From Algoriphagus limi (GTDB taxonomy: Bacteria; Bacteroidota; Bacteroidia; Cytophagales; Cyclobacteriaceae): a DNA stretch of 64,000 nt. Under the pieces are notes generated by a model. That model was not told the DNA's origin. It made no database searches and was given only the letters and a program-made list of their open reading frames with translations. The stretch covers positions 682,001 through 746,000 of the forward strand of contig NZ_JANWGH010000001.1 in assembly GCF_024919275.1 (NCBI RefSeq), written 5' to 3'. Made by a program: the position numbers and the translations under genes. Below are positions 47,626 through 55,706 of this stretch, in pieces (positions within the stretch are counted from its first letter, which is position 1; each line of letters starts with the position of its first letter).

Positions 47626-48258
47626 TTATGCTGGCATTTTCACATTCGAGAATACATAAAACATCTCACTTGCTATTTGCAACGATCGCTCATCATACTT
47701 TGCCGATTCCTCGGAGGTATTATCAAACTCCTTGGGGTCTTCATACCTGACAGGGATTCTTTTTTCTGTTCCAGGAATAAAAGGACAGTTTTCATCTGCA
47801 TGAGAACAGGTAATCACGGCCGCAAATTGTGAGCCCTTATTGATGGGGTCATTAAAGAGTTTGGAAAACGCAGTGATGGCTTCCTTGTCATCCGAATGAA
47901 AAACATAATAAACAGGATTAGCATCACCTTTAGCTGATACCTTAAAACCACTTCTTTTGATTGATGCAACGGCTCTCTCATTGAATGCGGTAATTTCAAC
48001 ACCTCCGGAGTAGCAATTAGCAGGAATTCCAAAATAGTCGGCTGCTGTTTGTGCCCAAATCTGGGAGAACTGACTTCTTCTGGAATTGTGGGTACAAATA
48101 AAGTTGAGGTTGATTTCCTGTCCCTGATCGATTTTTGATTGAATATATTCGATAAGAGGATTAAGCACTCGAATTCGATCTTCCGGTATAATCAGTTGCC
48201 TTGCCTTTTCAATCGATGTTAAAAGCTCAGGATATACTCCAAGTTTTTTTGTTGGCAT
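47626..48258 (-). CDS. arsC: Thioredoxin-coupled-type arsenate reductase, LMW-PTPase family
   Basis: 210 residues. The phosphatase loop CTHNSRRSQ holds Cys55 and Arg61 (C-x5-R). ITCSHADENCPFIPG has Cys153 and Cys160 seven apart, matching the Cys82/Cys89 relay of S. aureus ArsC, so all three redox cysteines are present. It should reduce arsenate to arsenite, with thioredoxin as reductant. The N-terminal 50 residues are longer than in the S. aureus enzyme. It is third in the arsR-DUF6428-arsC cluster, 21 nt after the DUF6428 stop. Protein-tyrosine phosphatase activity is the alternative. Confidence 0.88.
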   Translation of the reverse strand: MPTKKLGVYPELLTSIEKARQLIIPEDRIRVLNPLIEYIQSKIDQGQEINLNFICTHNSRRSQFSQIWAQTAADYFGIPANCYSGGVEITAFNERAVASIKRSGFKVSAKGDANPVYYVFHSDDKEAITAFSKLFNDPINKGSQFAAVITCSHADENCPFIPGTEKRIPVRYEDPKEFDNTSEESAKYDERSLQIASEMFYVFSNVKMPA

Positions 48259-48279
48259 GCTTAAGAGGCTTTAATATTA

Positions 48280-48750
48280 TTAACAACAACCAGAGCCAGG
48301 GATGCAAGCATCTTTCTGAATTTGTTTGGTAGAAAGCCTGATTTTTGGTTTTTCTTGAGGTATCCCGCATTTATCTTTCGCAAGGCAATCAGTCTGAGTG
48401 CTTGTTAGAAGAAATTTACCGTCCTGAAATTTCAATCCATACTTACCGATTGTATCTCCCTGATATTCTACTTCAATTTCAAGATTTTCCAGTCCAAGTT
48501 TTTCCTCTGATAGTTCAATAATAGAGCGAAGTTTATGAGCGCTTAATCGGTGGTCATAATCGGTAGATGTAAATAGCTGAAAGTTGATAACTGATTCTTT
48601 GCGGATCGTTCCTCCACAATCGATGAAGTGTTTTTGAATGCTTCCTACTTCAGTTACATGGAAATAGGGAGGAATTTGTTTGCCACTTGGAAGAATAAAT
48701 ACTACTTCGTTTAACTCTGACAATGCTGATTTGATTTCTGATAAGTTCAT
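48280..48750 (-). CDS. DUF6428 family protein (arsenic-cluster associated)
   Basis: 156 residues, family recurrently found between arsR and arsC in Bacteroidota. Visible features: GKQIPPYFHVTEVG, CGGTIRKE and LSAHKLRSIIELSEE. The C-terminus is cysteine-rich: CLAKDKCG and a last CIPGSGCC, which could bind arsenite or another soft metal. No catalytic motif known. Preceded by an exact copy of the arsR operator. Confidence 0.82.
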   Translation of the reverse strand: MNLSEIKSALSELNEVVFILPSGKQIPPYFHVTEVGSIQKHFIDCGGTIRKESVINFQLFTSTDYDHRLSAHKLRSIIELSEEKLGLENLEIEVEYQGDTIGKYGLKFQDGKFLLTSTQTDCLAKDKCGIPQEKPKIRLSTKQIQKDACIPGSGCC

Positions 48751-48753
48751 TTA

Positions 48754-48769
48754 ATTGCAATATTACGAT
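48754..48769. promoter_or_regulatory. Second copy of the ArsR-cluster operator
   Basis: ATTGCAATATTACGAT, identical over 16 bases to the copy upstream of arsR (49139-49154), and lying 4 nt before the DUF6428 start. It is an imperfect palindrome centred on AATATT (minus-strand reading ATCGTAATATTGCAAT). The short spacing to the ATG suggests it acts as an operator or internal block. Confidence 0.65.
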
Positions 48770-48787
48770 AAAGAGGAATAAATTTTT

Positions 48788-49123
48788 TTAGCAACAATCT
48801 CCTGAAGATGGAGACGCAAATTGATTGAATATTTCATTAAACTGATTTTTAATTTCAGCCCATCGCTCAGGATTGATGCAATAGCTAATTCGTGAGCCTT
48901 CAATAGTTCCCTGAATAATGCCAATGTCTTTTAATTCCCGGAGGTGCTGACTGATGGTTGCTTGGGCCAGGCCTAACTCCTGAACCAAATCCCCATTAAT
49001 ACAAACATTGCTTTTTAGTAGATATTGAATAATTGCGACCCGGGCTGGATGAGCAAATGCCTTTGCGGCAATTGCAATATGATTTTGCACGTCTGTGAAA
49101 AGTTCTGTTTTAGTTACTCCCAT
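48788..49123 (-). CDS. arsR: ArsR/SmtB-family metalloregulator
   Basis: 111 residues, winged helix: AKAFAHPARVAIIQYLLKSN, then recognition helix AQATISQHLRELKDIGII and wing SRISYCINP. Cys residues are at NVCING, SYCINP and the last two positions (GDCC), so an arsenite site is possible but does not follow the classic ELCVCDL pattern. It should repress its own cluster until metal binds. Operator copies lie before its gene and before DUF6428. Confidence 0.88.
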   Translation of the reverse strand: MGVTKTELFTDVQNHIAIAAKAFAHPARVAIIQYLLKSNVCINGDLVQELGLAQATISQHLRELKDIGIIQGTIEGSRISYCINPERWAEIKNQFNEIFNQFASPSSGDCC

Positions 49124-49207: not shown

Positions 49208-50590
49208 TTACTTCCCGATACAGAACTTTGAAAAGATGTTTGCTAATAGGTCATCTGTTGTGATCTCTCCCGTAATCTCTCCAAGAAAATAGAGTGACCT
49301 TCTGATATCCATTGCCAAAAAATCATTGGTGACTTGATTATCCAATCCTCCTAATACTTCCAATAAAGATTCCCGAGTTTTAGTAAGGCTATCGTAATGT
49401 CTAATATTTGTGACAACAGTATTTCCAGTCTTGAATTTATCAAGATTTACCAACTCCAGAATTTTGGCTTTCAATCCGTCAAGATTTTCCTTTTTATCAG
49501 CAGAAATAAAAATGGTATCAGGGTGTTTTTCCTTTAATTCTTTGACTAATTCTGGATTCGCTTTGTCAATCTTATTTGCGACCTTCAAATAGGGGACTCC
49601 CAAATTTTCGAGCTTGTTGATGTCCCGATTGATTTCTACCAAATCTGTATCACTCAAATCAAAAAGGTACAAAATCAAGGAAGCGGTTTTCATTTTTTCC
49701 TGAGTACGGCTTACCCCAATAGCTTCAATGGTATCGGTTGTTTCTCGTAAACCAGCAGTATCGATAAATCGAAAAATAACCCCGCCGATGTTGATTTCAT
49801 CCTCAATAAAATCGCGAGTTGTTCCGGCAATATCAGAAACGATCGCTTTTTCCTCATTGAGGAGGGCGTTTAAAAGAGTAGATTTCCCAGCATTCGGTTT
49901 CCCTGCGATGACAGTAGGAACGCCATTTTTGATGACATTTCCTAAGTCAAAGCTCAAAATCAATTCTTCAACAGCTCGTAGTAGCTTTTCAACCAAAACC
50001 CGAAGATCATCCCGGCTGGCAAACTCTACATCCTCTTCCGTAAAGTCCAATTCCAGTTCAATAAGGGATGCAAAATGAATTAATTGAGCTCGCAACTCTT
50101 GAATTTCTGAAGAAAAGCCTCCGCGCATTTGATTGAGAGCAGCTGCATGTGAAGCCTCTGAGTCAGCATTTATCAAATCGGCTACAGCCTCAGCTTGCGC
50201 TAGGTCAAATTGTCCATTTAAAAAGGCTCGCTGAGTAAACTCACCGGGTTTTGCAGGACGAACTCCTTTTTTGACCAAAAGTCGAATGACCTGATTGATA
50301 ATGTAAGAAGAGCCGTGGGTAGAAATTTCCACCACGTTTTCTTTTGTGAAAGATTTTGGCGCAATAAAAACTGATACAAGAACTTCGTCTATAATTCGTT
50401 TACCATCTCTAATAGTCCCAAAATGAATCGTATGGCTGGCTTGTTTTTCTAGATCTTTTCCAAAAAAAACCTGATTGGTTAATCGGATAGCGTCTTTTCC
50501 GGAAAGACGAATAACCGCGATGGCACCTACTCCCTGAGGAGTTGCTAAAGCGACGATGGTGTCTTGCTGTTCAGCTAAAGAAAAGCTCAT
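49208..50590 (-). CDS. mnmE: tRNA modification GTPase
   Basis: 460 residues. N-terminal tetrahydrofolate-binding domain begins [22 protein letters not shown]; the G domain has GKPNAGKST (G1), DIAGTTRD (switch I) and DTAGLRET (G3), NKID (G4), inserted in a helical domain that ends with the family's CIGK. With MnmG it installs the carboxymethylaminomethyl group at U34. It overlaps the thioredoxin-like gene by 4 nt and so is the last gene of the metal-transport operon. Confidence 0.96.
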
Positions 50591-51042
50591 GGTTTAGGTC
50601 GGAAGGCCTTTTCAATCAATTCATTGAGACCTGCAAGAAAAGCATCAGGTTCTCTATAGCCAGGAAGTTGAGCTATATTTTGAAGCTTTGGTTCTATTAC
50701 CACAAAATTAGGATAGGATCGCACGCGCATGGCTGCAGCCATTTGGGCTTCGCTGAATTTCTTTCCCATGAAATCAAAAGTGCGTTGAGTGTCCTCAGCA
50801 TTTAGCTTGACAGCATAAAAATTAGCATTGATATATTCAATTACTTCTGGATCAGTGAACGTCTCAGCATCCATTTTTTTGCACCATCCACACCAATCGG
50901 TGTAAACGTCCACCAAAAGCATTTTTGGATTGGATTGATTGGCTGCAACAGCTTCTTCAAATTTTAGCCAAGTGATTTTTTCTTGAGAATATGCAGTTGC
51001 TGCGAGAAATAGAAATCCGAAAAGGAAGATTAATTTTTTCAT
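50587..51042 (-). CDS. Secreted thioredoxin-like protein (DUF255/thioredoxin_7 type)
   Basis: 151 residues from ATG 51042 (signal peptide [20 protein letters not shown]); the frame from 51069 adds nine residues before it. Active site CGWC (Cys51, Cys54) in [15 protein letters not shown] and the cis-Pro in YPNFVV. A periplasmic disulfide reductase or isomerase role is likely. The start is 1 nt after the second permease stop, and the stop overlaps mnmE. Confidence 0.9.
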
Positions 51043-51043
51043 A

Positions 51044-51943
51044 CTACGAACTAAACGCCTTTGCTTCATTTTGGGTTCCGAATTTTATTTTGGATCGGTA
51101 TCGAGTTAATCCTACTGACACAAAGAAAATAATTCCTGCGACAGTTACCATCATGCCCGCAATGGAAGAGTCCAATAAATAGGCCAAATAATAACCCAAC
51201 AAAGAAACTGCAATTCCAATAATCAAAGTTAATTGGATTAATTGTCGAAGTTGACGAGTCCAAAGAAATGCTGTGGCTGGTGGGACAACCAAGAGAGCAA
51301 CAACCAAAATGGCACCTACAGCTTCAAAACTGCTGACGGTTGTGTAGGATACCATACTCATTAAGCCTAAGTTGATAGCAGAAGCCGGAATACCAATCAC
51401 CACTCCAAATTTTTCATCAAAACTGGTCAGTTTTAATTCTTTATAGAATAAGGTGATAAAGCTCAGAACCAAAATTAGATTCAGAATTGCTAACCACATG
51501 ATTCGGGGTCCTAGGCTTTTTCCCGCATCAGTTATCCATAAATCAATCGGTAAATAAGCTATTTCACCATAAAGGACACATTCTTGGTCTAAGTCAACTC
51601 GATAAGCAAAGGCACTGATTAAAATAATTCCTATAGCGAATAGGAGGGTAAAGGTAATTCCAATAGAAGCATCCAATTGTACTCTTGCTTTTTTACGGAG
51701 CCAATCAATCATCAAAGTGGCAAGAATTCCCAAGATTCCTGCTCCTACAATTACTTCCAAGCCTCTTTGTGTTCCGGAAACCAAAAAGCCAATAACAATA
51801 CCAGGTAAAACAGCATGGGAGATAGCATCTCCAGTCATTGCCATTTTTCGGAGCATCATAAAAACTCCCAACAGTCCACAAGAAATTGCTATCAGGGAAG
51901 CGGTGAATATGATCAAAAAAGCGTTTTGGTCAAATGTCATCAT
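51044..51943 (-). CDS. Manganese/zinc/iron ABC transporter permease (ZnuB/TroD-like)
   Basis: 299 residues, eight to nine membrane segments, ABC-3 family. Motifs GDAISHAVLPGIVIGFLVSG and VALLVVPPATAFLWTRQL (the latter the ABC-contact region) are typical. It lacks any extra domain, in contrast to the upstream permease. Its ATG overlaps the 3' end of that gene by 14 nt. It forms the second half of the membrane channel. Confidence 0.9.
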   Translation of the reverse strand: MMTFDQNAFLIIFTASLIAISCGLLGVFMMLRKMAMTGDAISHAVLPGIVIGFLVSGTQRGLEVIVGAGILGILATLMIDWLRKKARVQLDASIGITFTLLFAIGIILISAFAYRVDLDQECVLYGEIAYLPIDLWITDAGKSLGPRIMWLAILNLILVLSFITLFYKELKLTSFDEKFGVVIGIPASAINLGLMSMVSYTTVSSFEAVGAILVVALLVVPPATAFLWTRQLRQLIQLTLIIGIAVSLLGYYLAYLLDSSIAGMMVTVAGIIFFVSVGLTRYRSKIKFGTQNEAKAFSS

Positions 51944-53222
51944 GGTCTCTTGGGATTGTTTCCTGATGGGGATCCAAGCGTGGAAAATTCAGCCTAGTTT
52001 CCAATAATGCTTCCAGTTCAGGGGTTAATAAATGCTCCAATTTTTCAGCAGATTCGTGGACATGATCTGGAGCGATATTCATGTATTCATTGAGATAAAG
52101 TTCCCAAAGTCGGTGGAGTCTCACAATTCGTTTAGCCTCCATCTTTCCGGGCTTTGTAAGTTTTATAAGGTTTTGATTTATAAATAATTGACCTTCTTTT
52201 TCTAATTCCTTGATTGAATTTTTAATTGCTTGCTTTTGGTGAGGATAAATATGAGTTAACTCCTCAAGACTCAAAGCGGGTTTTCCTAACTCTTCTGCTT
52301 TATAAATGCTCTTCAAGACGTGATCCCGCTGAGTTTTGTCGATATATTTTTTTCGATGATAGAAGCGAAATAGGATGCCTTTTTTAGGGGCAAATAGAAA
52401 GGAGAGTAGGGCAATGAATGATAAGATCACCACGACCCAAGGACCTGTTGGCATTTGCGGAAGAGTGTAAGAAATATAGGTTCCGAAAATGCCTGAAATG
52501 ATTGCAAAAACTGCTGCTAGTATTAAAAGTGTTTTTAATCGATCTGTCCAAAATCTTGCTGCTGCTCCAGGGGTAATCAATAAGGCAGCCATCAATACCA
52601 CTCCAATAGCTTGAATGCCGATAACCACAGCTAAAATGATTAGGATGTTAAAAACCAATCGTATGTGGTGCATTGGTAGCCCTAAAGCTTTTCCAAAATC
52701 AGGATTGAAAACAAGGATTTGGAATTCTTTGAGCATAAAGACCAAAACCCCAATTATTCCTATAGAAAGACCTCCATATATCCAAAGATCACGCTCTACG
52801 ATACCAATAGCATTTCCGAAAATGAATTGATTGAGACCTGCCATTTCAGGATTTCCACTCTTTTGAATAATGGTCAAAAAAACAATACCTATTCCAAAAA
52901 AAACCGATAAGACGACAGCAATGATGGAGTCCTCGCTTAATTTGGTATTATCTTTTAGCCAGGAAGTCAAGTATGTGGCAAGACCTCCAGATGCAATCGC
53001 TCCACCAACGATAAAAAATGGATTCTTTTCTCCTGCCAGCATAAAGCCCAAACAAATTCCCGGAAGAATAGCATGTGAAATTGCATCCCCAAGTAATGCT
53101 TTATTGTCTAGAAAGCTAAACGTGCCGACAAAGGCAGAACCGATACCTAGTAGCGTAATTCCTAAAACCACAAAAGCTATGGATGCATCCTGAAAAGAAA
53201 AGAAATAAAGAAAATCTTCCAT
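51930..53222 (-). CDS. Metal ABC transporter permease fused to a DtxR/MntR-like regulator domain
   Basis: 430 residues. Residues 1-275 are an ABC-3 permease with the usual motifs (GDAISHAILPGICLG, ALLITPGAAARFW). After a basic linker (285-297) comes a winged-helix domain (about 298-365) and a dimerisation/metal domain (366-425) that aligns clearly with the standalone MntR of the same operon: LHRLWELYLNEY against KHRLWEVFLVEK, and DHVHESAEKLEH against DEVHEVAEELEH. Metal ligands equivalent to MntR His77, Glu99, Glu102 and His103 are kept (His370, Glu393, Glu396, His397). The same architecture is known from chlamydial YtgCR. It overlaps the ATPase gene by 1 nt and the next permease by 14 nt. 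Confidence 0.93.
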   Translation of the reverse strand: MEDFLYFFSFQDASIAFVVLGITLLGIGSAFVGTFSFLDNKALLGDAISHAILPGICLGFMLAGEKNPFFIVGGAIASGGLATYLTSWLKDNTKLSEDSIIAVVLSVFFGIGIVFLTIIQKSGNPEMAGLNQFIFGNAIGIVERDLWIYGGLSIGIIGVLVFMLKEFQILVFNPDFGKALGLPMHHIRLVFNILIILAVVIGIQAIGVVLMAALLITPGAAARFWTDRLKTLLILAAVFAIISGIFGTYISYTLPQMPTGPWVVVILSFIALLSFLFAPKKGILFRFYHRKKYIDKTQRDHVLKSIYKAEELGKPALSLEELTHIYPHQKQAIKNSIKELEKEGQLFINQNLIKLTKPGKMEAKRIVRLHRLWELYLNEYMNIAPDHVHESAEKLEHLLTPELEALLETRLNFPRLDPHQETIPRDHDDI

Positions 53223-54010
53223 TAGTCTTTGAGAGGATTAAATTCTTTCTGTCGGATGAGTTCGGATACTTTAGAAAGTAAGTTCAACTTTCCACCATAG
53301 GTTTTTCTGAGCAATTCCTCAGTCACTACTTCGTTTTTGGGTCCTGAGGCTACTAAATGAAGATTCAGCATTATAAACCAATCGAAATAATTAACAGCTG
53401 AATAAATATCGTGATGTACCACGATTACGGTTTTTCCACTTTGGCTCATTTCCTGAAGCAAGTTGAAAATCGCCGTTTCTGTATTCATATCAACCCCGGC
53501 AAAAGGTTCGTCCATTAAATACAAATCAGCTTCTTGTGCCAAGGCTCTTGCTATGAACACGCGCTGTTGCTGACCACCCGACAGTTCAGAAATTTGTCGA
53601 TGAACATAAGCAGTCATTCCAACTTTTTCCAGGCAGGAAAGTGCTAATTCTCTCTCTTTTTTTCCAGGTCGCTTAAATAGTCCCAGTTTTCCATAGGTTC
53701 CCATTAAAACCACATCTAAAACCGAGGCAGGAAAATTCCAGTCAACCGATTCCCGTTGCGGCACGTAGCTGATTTTGTTCCGAACTTTATCTAAGTCCTG
53801 ATCAAAAATCTTCACATAACCACTGTTTGGTTCGATCAATCCCATAATTGCTTTGATCAAAGTGGATTTTCCAGCACCATTCGGGCCAAGTATTCCGATC
53901 AGTTTTCCAGCAGGTAAACTGAAGTCCACATTCCACAATACCGGACTTTGGTCGTAGCTAACCGTCAAATCGTGAATTTCTAGGATTGGTTGCGTTACTT
54001 GCTTGATCAT
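53222..54010 (-). CDS. Metal ABC transporter ATPase
   Basis: 262 residues. Walker A GPNGAGKST, Q-loop YVPQRESVDW, signature LSGGQQQR, Walker B LYLMDEPFAG and the switch His in VVHHD. The PQRESVDWNFP segment is characteristic of Mn/Zn/Fe (TroB, MntB, ZnuC) ATPases. Its start overlaps the binding-protein stop by 4 nt. It powers import through the two permeases. Confidence 0.94.
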   Translation of the reverse strand: MIKQVTQPILEIHDLTVSYDQSPVLWNVDFSLPAGKLIGILGPNGAGKSTLIKAIMGLIEPNSGYVKIFDQDLDKVRNKISYVPQRESVDWNFPASVLDVVLMGTYGKLGLFKRPGKKERELALSCLEKVGMTAYVHRQISELSGGQQQRVFIARALAQEADLYLMDEPFAGVDMNTETAIFNLLQEMSQSGKTVIVVHHDIYSAVNYFDWFIMLNLHLVASGPKNEVVTEELLRKTYGGKLNLLSKVSELIRQKEFNPLKD

Positions 54011-54921
54011 GGCAATAGGGCTTGATAGATGGTGTTAAGATTGGTTCGTACCATTCCAATGTAGGTCCCCGCTTCAGTGTCAGGAGCGTCTAAGCTATCG
54101 GTGAATAGAGGGCCAGCTAGTTGGATAGGGTGGTCGCGTTTTTCACATGCCTGTACCAAAGCATTCAATGCTCTGGGAGAAATGGTTTGCTCTGCAAAAA
54201 CAGCTTTGATGTTTTGGTCAATAATGAACTGAACTAGATTTCCTAAATCGCGAAGTCCAGGTTCACTCAAAGTAGAAAGTCCTTGTAAGCCTCTCACTTC
54301 GATTTGGTAGGCCTTTCCAAAATAAGCAAAAGCATCATGAGCTGTTACTATGGCCTGTCCAGATGAAACTAGTTCTCCGGTTATTTTTTCAGCATAAGCA
54401 TTCAGCCCTTGAAGTTCTTTCTGATAAGCCTTCCAATTTTCTCGGATTTGCGTTTCCCATTCAGGCTTCCATTGAATTAGTTTTTCTATGGTGTCCTCCA
54501 ATGCCATTTCCCAAAGCAGCACATCAAACCAAATGTGAGGATCTACACTGTGTGCCTCAGGCCCTGATCGTAGCAATTTACTTTCGGGTAGGTCTTCAGA
54601 TATATTGATGAGGTTTTGACTGTAGGCCAATTTTTCAAAAATCTCAGTCATTTTACCTTCAAGAAATAAACCATGGTAAACCACCAAATTTGCATTAGTC
54701 AGCAAATCCAAATCTCTGACTGATGCTTTGTAAAGATGAGGATCCACTCCGGCAGGCATAAGGGGTTGTACGTCGGCCAAATCACCCATTATTTCGGATA
54801 TTGCATCTGCCAAGATGCTGGTAGTAGCCACGATCAAAGGCTTCTCCCGATTTTCAGGAGAAGAGCTTTTGCAGGAAAAAATTCCGATAGTTAAAAGTAT
54901 AACAACAATAACCCTTTTCAT
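54007..54921 (-). CDS. Metal ABC transporter substrate-binding lipoprotein (TroA/MntA-like)
   Basis: 304 residues with lipobox IGIFSC (Cys17), cluster A-I binding protein. Predicted metal ligands are the His of VDPHLYKAS, the His of DPHIWFD, the Glu in FAEQTIS and the Asp of LFTDSLD. The set His-His-Glu-Asp is typical of manganese or iron binders rather than the three-His zinc proteins, and there is no His-rich loop. It sits on the periplasmic side and hands the metal to the permeases. Confidence 0.92.
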   Translation of the reverse strand: MKRVIVVILLTIGIFSCKSSSPENREKPLIVATTSILADAISEIMGDLADVQPLMPAGVDPHLYKASVRDLDLLTNANLVVYHGLFLEGKMTEIFEKLAYSQNLINISEDLPESKLLRSGPEAHSVDPHIWFDVLLWEMALEDTIEKLIQWKPEWETQIRENWKAYQKELQGLNAYAEKITGELVSSGQAIVTAHDAFAYFGKAYQIEVRGLQGLSTLSEPGLRDLGNLVQFIIDQNIKAVFAEQTISPRALNALVQACEKRDHPIQLAGPLFTDSLDAPDTEAGTYIGMVRTNLNTIYQALLP

Positions 54922-55580
54922 GACTGAATAGCGAGAATATTTGATGCTACATCTTTGGACATGAAAATGCTTTTCTTTTGATCTACTAGGATTTCGACAG
55001 AGCCATCGAATTCAACCTTGTCTAGGATTTTTACTCTTGCTCCGATATATGCGCCGACTTTATCCATGTAGCGAAGGAAGGCTGCCGAACTATCCTTGAC
55101 TGCAACGATTTGTCCTGATTGATCGATTTCCATTTCACTGATTGGAACTCTAGGTCGTGCTTTTACATCTCCAAATTCATCTGGAATCGGATCGCCATGT
55201 GGATCAAACTTTGGATAGTTTAAAAATGCATCGAGCCGCTGAATAAGTAGGGGAGATTGAATATGTTCTAATTCTTCTGCTACCTCATGAACTTCATCCC
55301 AAGCGAAGTTTAGTTTTTCAACCAAGAACACTTCCCATAGGCGATGCTTTCGAATTGTTTGAAGCGCAAATTTTTTGCCTTCAGGTGTAATGTTGACACC
55401 GTAATATTTCCGATAGTTAATCACACCTTTTTCGCCAAGCTTCCGAAGCATATCTGAAACGGAGGCAGGTTTTGTCTTCATCTCAGCTGCAATGTCATTC
55501 GTCGAAACTGACTTACTGGCTCCATCTGATAGGTGATAGATGGCCTTTAAATAATTCTCTTCTGCTGCAGTCAAATTCAT
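54918..55580 (-). CDS. mntR: DtxR/MntR-family metal-dependent repressor
   Basis: 220 residues from ATG 55580; a TTG two codons upstream is less likely. Winged-helix domain (1-72), dimerisation domain with His79 and Glu83 in KHRLWE, Glu102, Glu105 and His106 in AEELEH, and a C-terminal FeoA/SH3-like domain (about 145-215). It should repress the downstream transporter when manganese (or ferrous iron) is plentiful. ATGA overlap with the binding-protein gene, first of a seven-gene operon. Two palindromic sites lie upstream. Confidence 0.92.
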   Translation of the reverse strand: MNLTAAEENYLKAIYHLSDGASKSVSTNDIAAEMKTKPASVSDMLRKLGEKGVINYRKYYGVNITPEGKKFALQTIRKHRLWEVFLVEKLNFAWDEVHEVAEELEHIQSPLLIQRLDAFLNYPKFDPHGDPIPDEFGDVKARPRVPISEMEIDQSGQIVAVKDSSAAFLRYMDKVGAYIGARVKILDKVEFDGSVEILVDQKKSIFMSKDVASNILAIQS

Positions 55581-55598
55581 TTTCAATCAAATTTGAAA

Positions 55599-55630
55599 CA
55601 AATATAAAAATTAATTTAGATATAGCTAAA
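55599..55630 (-). promoter_or_regulatory. mntR promoter with a DtxR-type operator in the spacer
   Basis: On the minus strand TATATTTG (55606-55599) is an exact -7 element, 19 nt before the mntR ATG. The 16-bp palindrome TTTAGATATAGCTAAA (55615-55630) lies immediately upstream of it, in the spacer to the -33 region, so a bound regulator would block polymerase. Half sites are TTTAG and CTAAA. Confidence 0.62.
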
Positions 55631-55690: not shown

Positions 55691-55706
55691 ATTAGCCTTA
55701 TCTAAA
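55691..55706. promoter_or_regulatory. Second TTAG-N6-CTAA palindrome upstream of mntR
   Basis: ATTAGCCTTATCTAAA has the same half-site sequence and spacing as the site at 55615-55630, differing in the outermost base and the central six. It lies 76 nt further upstream, centre to centre. Confidence 0.5.

Follow-up and report, generated by a model that had tools for sequence, protein, structure and literature searches.

Cells must stop the import of manganese and iron fast once they are supplied, and ABC-3 importers are placed under transcriptional control; we know of no built-in feedback in them. Inhibition by zinc from outside, acting via the binding protein, is described for these importers in excerpts of PMC8487065. 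The locus analysed here raises the question of what a DtxR/MntR-type module does when it is fused to the permease of such an importer, in a cluster that also encodes a separate MntR.

Architecture and spread of the fusion

The locus lies in a stretch of 64,000 nucleotides from Algoriphagus limi, here called the window, in which the cluster runs in the order mntR-SBP-ATPase-fusion-permease D-thioredoxin (SBP, substrate-binding protein). Its features, with the evidence for each, are as follows.

50587..51069, minus strand: thioredoxin-like protein that closes the cluster, in the same position in many relatives (ORF list, Pfam)
51044..51943, minus strand: second ABC-3 permease (partner D), no extra domain, overlapping the fusion by 14 bases (ORF list, Pfam)
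51930..53222, minus strand: ABC-3 metal permease fused to a DtxR-type module, 430 aa (ORF list, Pfam, AlphaFold2, fold comparison)
52392..53174, minus strand: permease part, residues 17-277 (PF00950), with the transport triad D46/H50/D98 (Pfam)
52290..52376, minus strand: helix 283-311, predicted to be at once the linker after the last transmembrane (TM) helix and the first helix of the DtxR module (AlphaFold2 model)
52158..52331, minus strand: winged-helix (former DNA-binding) half, residues 298-355, with variable DNA-reading residues (alignments, dN/dS, Pfam)
51948..52157, minus strand: metal-binding/dimerisation domain PF02742, residues 356-425, with H370, E374, H389, E393, E396, H397, D417 and H419 (Pfam)
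53222..54010, minus strand: ABC ATPase of the Mn/Fe type, 262 aa (ORF list, Pfam)
54007..54921, minus strand: SBP of the ZnuA/MntC superfamily (ORF list, Pfam)
54918..55586, minus strand: separate MntR, 222 aa, made up of DNA-binding, metal and FeoA domains; the true ATG is likely at 55580 (ORF list, Pfam)
55616..55629, no strand: proximal MntR operator-like site, TTAGATATAGCTAA (pattern conserved among relatives)
55692..55705, no strand: distal MntR operator-like site, 76 bp from the proximal one, TTAGCCTTATCTAA (pattern conserved among relatives)

Elsewhere in the window, an ArsR-family regulator at 48788-49123 (PF01022, E 4.3e-11) is followed by two small genes, and this group (47626-49123, minus strand) is perhaps an arsenic-related cluster.

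A preliminary description of this DNA had reported a permease carrying a DtxR/MntR-like regulator, and the coordinates, strand and length it gave are confirmed: 51930-53222 on the minus strand is a single intact open reading frame of 430 residues, a permease with a C-terminal DtxR-type module. The separate MntR, with its three domains, does lie 1.7 kb upstream, its end at 54918 being compared with 53222. The window holds no frameshift that would make the module a gene of its own, and relatives from many genera, from Algoriphagus to Flavobacteriales, likewise have it unbroken, which rules out a frameshift or an annotation artefact. In the window protein the ABC-3 profile covers residues 17-277 (E 1.6e-62) and Fe_dep_repr_C residues 356-425 (E 4.6e-21), while residues from about 298 to 425 resemble solved DtxR-family regulators both by sequence and by predicted fold. 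The regulatory module is on the permease; the 262-residue ATPase matches only the ABC ATPase domain and overlapping P-loop profiles in Pfam.

For comparison we collected 112 fusion ORFs, a wider search of relatives having given 77 loci. The 106 ORFs of at least 400 aa were used (101 distinct sequences), and six shorter ones, at contig ends or with broken frames in draft contigs, were left out; these were set beside 79 separate regulators (74 distinct), and both sets lean heavily on Algoriphagus. Pfam was run on 75 fusions sharing less than 85% identity and 45 separate regulators sharing less than 95%, and conservation was counted in a non-redundant set of 85 fusions (less than 90% identity) and 17 MntRs. 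Both the ABC-3 profile and the DtxR-type metal domain were found in 75 of 75 fusions, the window's own included. The triad residues D46, H50 and D98, whose counterparts have a role in transport in a homologue (PMC8487065 section 6), are each present in 74 of the 75; the exception is a gap at 46 and 50, likely in L062, and a Glu at 98. L062, cut short by the start chosen for it, is absent from the alignment behind the AlphaFold2 model (A1) and kept in A2. The fusion thus carries PF00950, the predicted PsaC fold and the D-H-D triad of an ABC-3 manganese permease.

Counted by frame length (422-516 aa), the architecture occurs in at least 32 of 392 Bacteroidota genomes and at least 11 families, a lower bound; the permease half was present in 30 of these 32 genomes, the 30 that were read. 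Frames of fusion size in at least 11 families of the phylum indicate that the architecture is more than chance. A set of 28 genomes, made up of the window's own and 27 relatives, was scanned for PF02742. In 19 the domain falls in a frame of 424-501 aa, and the eight of these that were read are permease fusions; in three it falls in shorter frames, of 255, 213 and 39 aa, and the remaining six have no match of fusion size. Plasmid records were searched for fusions in other phyla, and among the matches listed (40 of 1257) the one reaching furthest into the module, from Halomonas (H7, query 3-376), had no match to the DtxR part. The gene order MntR-SBP-ATPase-fusion-PermD-Trx recurs in 57 of the 101 distinct fusions, many of the others being cut by locus ends and some unlinked. 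Several fusions have no neighbouring ABC genes in the stretches read; ATPase and SBP matches lie elsewhere in the genome (12 of 12 genomes each). One fusion permease, in genome G019, adjoins a 596-residue open frame (L126:6055-7842, minus strand) that joins an SBP, a hydrophobic stretch and an ABC ATPase and that, should it be genuine, would encode SBP and ATPase as one membrane-tethered protein.

Frames of 339-351 aa were considered as a second type of fusion and rejected: seven loci (L111, L113-L117 and L125, of which L111 and L125 hold an identical ORF) were read, and none matches a permease. Two of these proteins, L113:1187-2236 (minus strand) and L115:2479-3516 (plus strand), have a metal domain and a C-terminal FeoA domain, with PF01325 weak (E 0.0057) or absent; in L113-L117 such regulators adjoin an ordinary DtxR, and together with the like frames in L114, L116, L117 and L125 they are possibly another DtxR line that has departed from DNA binding.

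Conservation of the two halves of the module

The module had been called a complete regulator, a description that holds for the metal domain and the predicted winged-helix fold and fails for the rest: the window protein has no PF01325 match at E <= 0.1 in the Pfam scan, and no FeoA domain (found in 3 of 75 fusions), and the DNA-reading residues are not conserved among the fusions. The longer fusions L118, L119 and L110/L121 (genomes G185, G091 and G064), in frames of 498-516 aa, retain a FeoA-like end (E 1.9e-8 to 0.0043); they are perhaps closer to the ancestral form, and each is the sole ABC-3 match in its genome.

The metal half is intact. As in DtxR and MntR, a PF02742 metal-binding/dimerisation domain is present together with its ligands, H370, E393, E396 and H397, which had been named beforehand, and the ancillary-site equivalents E374 and H389. 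Equivalences to DtxR-family regulators were taken from alignments, and the roles of these residues are presumably those of the DtxR, MntR and ScaR sites. Loss of ligands in relatives, which would speak against a working site, was not found: every one of the 106 fusion ORFs of 400 aa or more retains the six metal-site residues, with Glu or Asp accepted at 393. Among the 85 non-redundant fusions, H370, E374, H389, E396 and H397 occur in all, E393 in 82 (three have Asp), D417 in 83 and H419 in 84. Of 21 columns that are invariant in the 75 fusions, 11 fall between H370 and P418 (H370, R371, L372, W373, E374, H389, A392, E396, H397, P414 and P418), and by these counts the metal site is conserved at least as strongly as the transport core. 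The first helix of MntR and DtxR carries a metal ligand, and the equivalent position of the fusion, 301, is His, Asn or Asp in 106 of 106. The metal half also has a class signature of its own, R365, Y376, H387, T400, E402 and E404, each found in 97-105 of 106 fusions against 0-6 of 79 separate regulators, which indicates a module in use rather than one in decay.

The DNA-reading half differs. The MntR DNA-reading motif is found in none of 106 fusions and in 75 of 79 separate regulators, and the DtxR DNA-binding profile PF01325 (E <= 0.01) in none of 75 against 45 of 45. At 64 loci that have both genes, mean identity in the fusion is 0.401 for the helix-turn-helix (HTH), 0.388 for the recognition helix and 0.759 for the metal half, against 0.811, 0.891 and 0.857 in the separate MntR; the gap between metal half and HTH is bigger in the fusion in 2013 of 2016 pairs, which are not independent of one another. 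Median dN/dS (regional dN over domain dS, Nei-Gojobori-style) over 79 close pairs of fusions is 0.185 for the HTH, 0.188 for the recognition helix, 0.028 for the metal half and 0.067 for residues 250-283; over 20 close pairs of MntR it is 0.015 for the HTH, 0.000 for the recognition helix and 0.013 for the metal half. The recognition-helix stretch of the fusions (327-340) is variable, with entropy up to 3.6 bits, though L340 is kept in 85 of 85; in the 17 MntRs, A41 and V43 occur in all and S42, D45 and M46 in 16. The fused winged-helix half is thus, on sequence evidence, kept as a fold and not as a DtxR-type DNA reader, which sets it apart from the soluble DNA-binding regulators DR2539, SloR, ScaR and IdeR/DtxR, since it has neither a PF01325 match nor a conserved recognition helix. 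The fold itself is predicted to persist (AlphaFold2, fold comparison), selection on it is mildly purifying (0.185), K304 and L340 are near-invariant within it, and other winged-helix profiles are matched weakly by a few fusions (1-4 of 75 per profile); given these features, DNA contact of a non-DtxR kind is conceivable for the fused half.

These observations bear on the parallel with chlamydial YtgCR, which had been drawn beforehand and which is right as architecture. In the ytgABCD operon, ytgA encodes the SBP and ytgB the ATPase. As the chlamydial system is described in the excerpted sources, the two share a permease-regulator fusion in one intact frame, the order SBP-ATPase-fusion-permease D and the place of the fusion as third gene of a four-gene importer operon. 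According to excerpts of PMC5599777 and PMC7755916, YtgCR is an ABC permease with a C-terminal DtxR-type module; it releases a product of about 28 kDa, and YtgR is reported to be a cleaved-off repressor that binds the ytg promoter. The parallel stops there, because Algoriphagus has a separate full MntR with operator-like sites and its fused module has no DtxR DNA-binding profile, the chlamydial side being known to us by description only. A released second metal-dependent repressor in Algoriphagus would draw on the shared architecture, the persisting winged-helix fold and the few weak profile matches, but the absence of the DNA-binding profile from all 75 fusions, a recognition-helix identity of 39% against 89% in MntR of the same loci, and the fact that the most frequent heptapeptide at the recognition-helix place occurs just twice in 106 fusions make it highly improbable.

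The separate MntR and genomes with a single sensor or permease

Transcriptional control appears to have another seat in the cluster. All 64 DtxR-type genes that were checked have the pattern TTAG-N6-CTAA upstream, 61 of these genes belonging to loci whose fusion is full-length, and the pattern turns up in 1 of 64 letter-shuffled upstream regions; two further DtxR-type fragments at contig ends were left out, and this set overlaps with the 64 paired loci but differs from them. In 44 of the 64 the spacing of the last two sites is exactly 76 bp, in two it is 77 and in three 98, and 15 have a single site; the fixed spacing of 76 bp suggests co-operative or looped binding. TTAG-N6-CTAA, the sole operator type searched, was absent from all 67 fusion genes examined, 200 bp of upstream sequence included. 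Genome-wide, TTAGNNNNNNCTAAA has 42 strand-wise matches against 206 for a reversed-pattern control; since the control outnumbers it, the pattern does not define a regulon, and since the pattern is not rare genome-wide, the operator argument rests on its conservation at the mntR promoter in related genomes. Two look-alike sites (L135, L136) adjoin genes with no metal role apparent on inspection. The best reading is that the separate MntR would exert transcriptional control and the fused module would act as a metal sensor in place. The window's own genome also encodes, at about 1.078 Mb of C1 (L134:3767-4432, plus strand), a further separate regulator of the DtxR type, which also has DNA-binding, metal and FeoA domains. 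Its gene is divergent from that of a TonB-dependent receptor, possibly an outer-membrane metal receptor under the regulator's control.

Some genomes offer natural experiments. In four that were chosen and not drawn at random (G025, G230, G246 and G342), PF02742 is matched by the fusion alone, and these fusions (L128, L096, L106 and L107) are among the 75 without PF01325. A sole PF02742 protein without the DNA-binding profile is no standard repressor and has no DtxR-type repressor to pair with, which speaks further against a released repressor. It also bears on a second alternative, in which the module pairs with soluble MntR in mixed dimers and keeps it at the membrane, the number or state of transporters thereby tuning the repressor. 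Both proteins, encoded in one cluster, keep the DtxR dimerisation domain, which speaks for such a co-sensor; the module is nevertheless kept in these four genomes, and the metal domains of the fused and separate classes differ at class-specific positions, so that we consider this unlikely. In five of 12 chosen genomes (G019, G064, G091, G185 and G297) no ABC-3 permease was found besides the fusion, and the other seven have a second one, as the window does; as sole ABC-3 match it should be a working channel there, presumably a homodimer with two modules. Only one of the two permeases in the window carries the module, and two sensor domains may therefore not meet within one transporter.

A predicted linking helix and a possible brake on import

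In the AlphaFold2 model a single helix (283-311) follows the last TM helix (259-277) after a five-residue break (278-282). The PsaC chain 7kyp_F aligns with the model up to residue 298; PsaC and MntC permeases (S. pneumoniae PsaBC, 7kyp) have no regulatory domain, and the PsaC chain ends where the fused sensor starts. R286, R290 and K296 are the commonest residues at their places in the helix (52, 44 and 57 of 75 fusions). Model confidence is lowest where several ligands sit, at 69, 65 and 77 for the blocks of 381-410. In the homologue MntC, the last TM helix is modelled as running on into a charged cytoplasmic helix, and removal of this C-terminal helix abolished manganese import while membrane expression was retained (PMC8487065 section 6). 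Its counterpart in the fusion is helix 283-311. The predicted helix also spans residues 285-300, where cleavage of the fusion had been expected, and no Met is conserved internally at 284-302 (no position has it in more than 4 of 106 fusions, with 10 at 283 and 19 at 303; Met codons only); both points argue against release of the module.

Two options had been raised for the module, a metal gate on transport or a released repressor. The sequence evidence, in which the triad and the metal sites are retained but not the DNA-reading surface, points to the first and away from the second. We think it somewhat more probable than otherwise that this is an importer of Mn2+ (possibly Fe2+) whose permease C absorbed a DtxR/MntR-type sensor as an on-board allosteric brake. 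Rising cytosolic metal would fill the sensor site, formed by H370/E393/E396/H397 with residue 301 of helix 283-311, beside an ancillary site at E374/H389/D417/H419. Once bound, the metal would pin the helix to the metal domain, perhaps together with dimerisation; the pinned helix would halt the movement needed for transport and so stall the importer. Control would then have two layers, a slow one through transcription by MntR and a fast one through the on-board sensor.

The invariant metal site and an extra conserved His (H387, 99 of 106) would equally suit a cytosolic exit site or buffer that takes metal from the channel and passes it on without regulating transport. However, an allosteric device would better explain why the winged-helix frame has been retained and why a helix links module and permease, and the residues kept are those of both regulator sites and not those of one transfer site, so that this alternative seems to us improbable.

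The proposed brake would have relatives in function. The regulatory domains of MetNI and ModBC are unrelated to the DtxR fold. In excerpts of PMC10710835, both are ABC importers that are inhibited when their substrate binds a cytosolic domain fused to them, and such a domain sensing the imported substrate is what we propose for the fusion; there, however, as those excerpts place it, the domain is sited on the ATPase and here on the permease, which counts against the brake. With its sensor domain on another subunit, the fusion would work like MetNI and ModBC without being one of them. A literature search gave, among the matches listed, no report of a permease-DtxR fusion outside Chlamydia, which is weak evidence of absence as subscription journals fall mostly outside its scope; the sources drawn upon, in excerpt, were PMC8487065, PMC7755916, PMC5599777, PMC6504234 and PMC10710835.

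In a tree, the fused modules all fall on one side of a branch from the separate regulators (39 against 17 rows, support 97/99). This signal for a single origin of the fusion in Bacteroidota is only suggestive, because the branches are long and the loss of DNA reading could itself pull the fusions together. Taken as a whole, the history in which a DtxR-type regulator was fused, perhaps once, to the permease of a Bacteroidota Mn/Fe importer, dropped DNA reading and kept metal sensing while its first helix replaced the essential C-terminal helix is one on which we are evenly divided.

If true, this would be, to our knowledge, the first case of an ABC-3 metal importer braked directly by metal, with the brake placed on the permease. 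With a module kept within a permease for its metal site and not for DNA binding, a handful of point mutants would suffice to test direct feedback, and the module raises the question of whether the chlamydial YtgCR module acts on transport too, before its release. Should the brake be real, it would represent a clear case of a repressor fold, that of a transcription factor, domesticated as part of a transporter.
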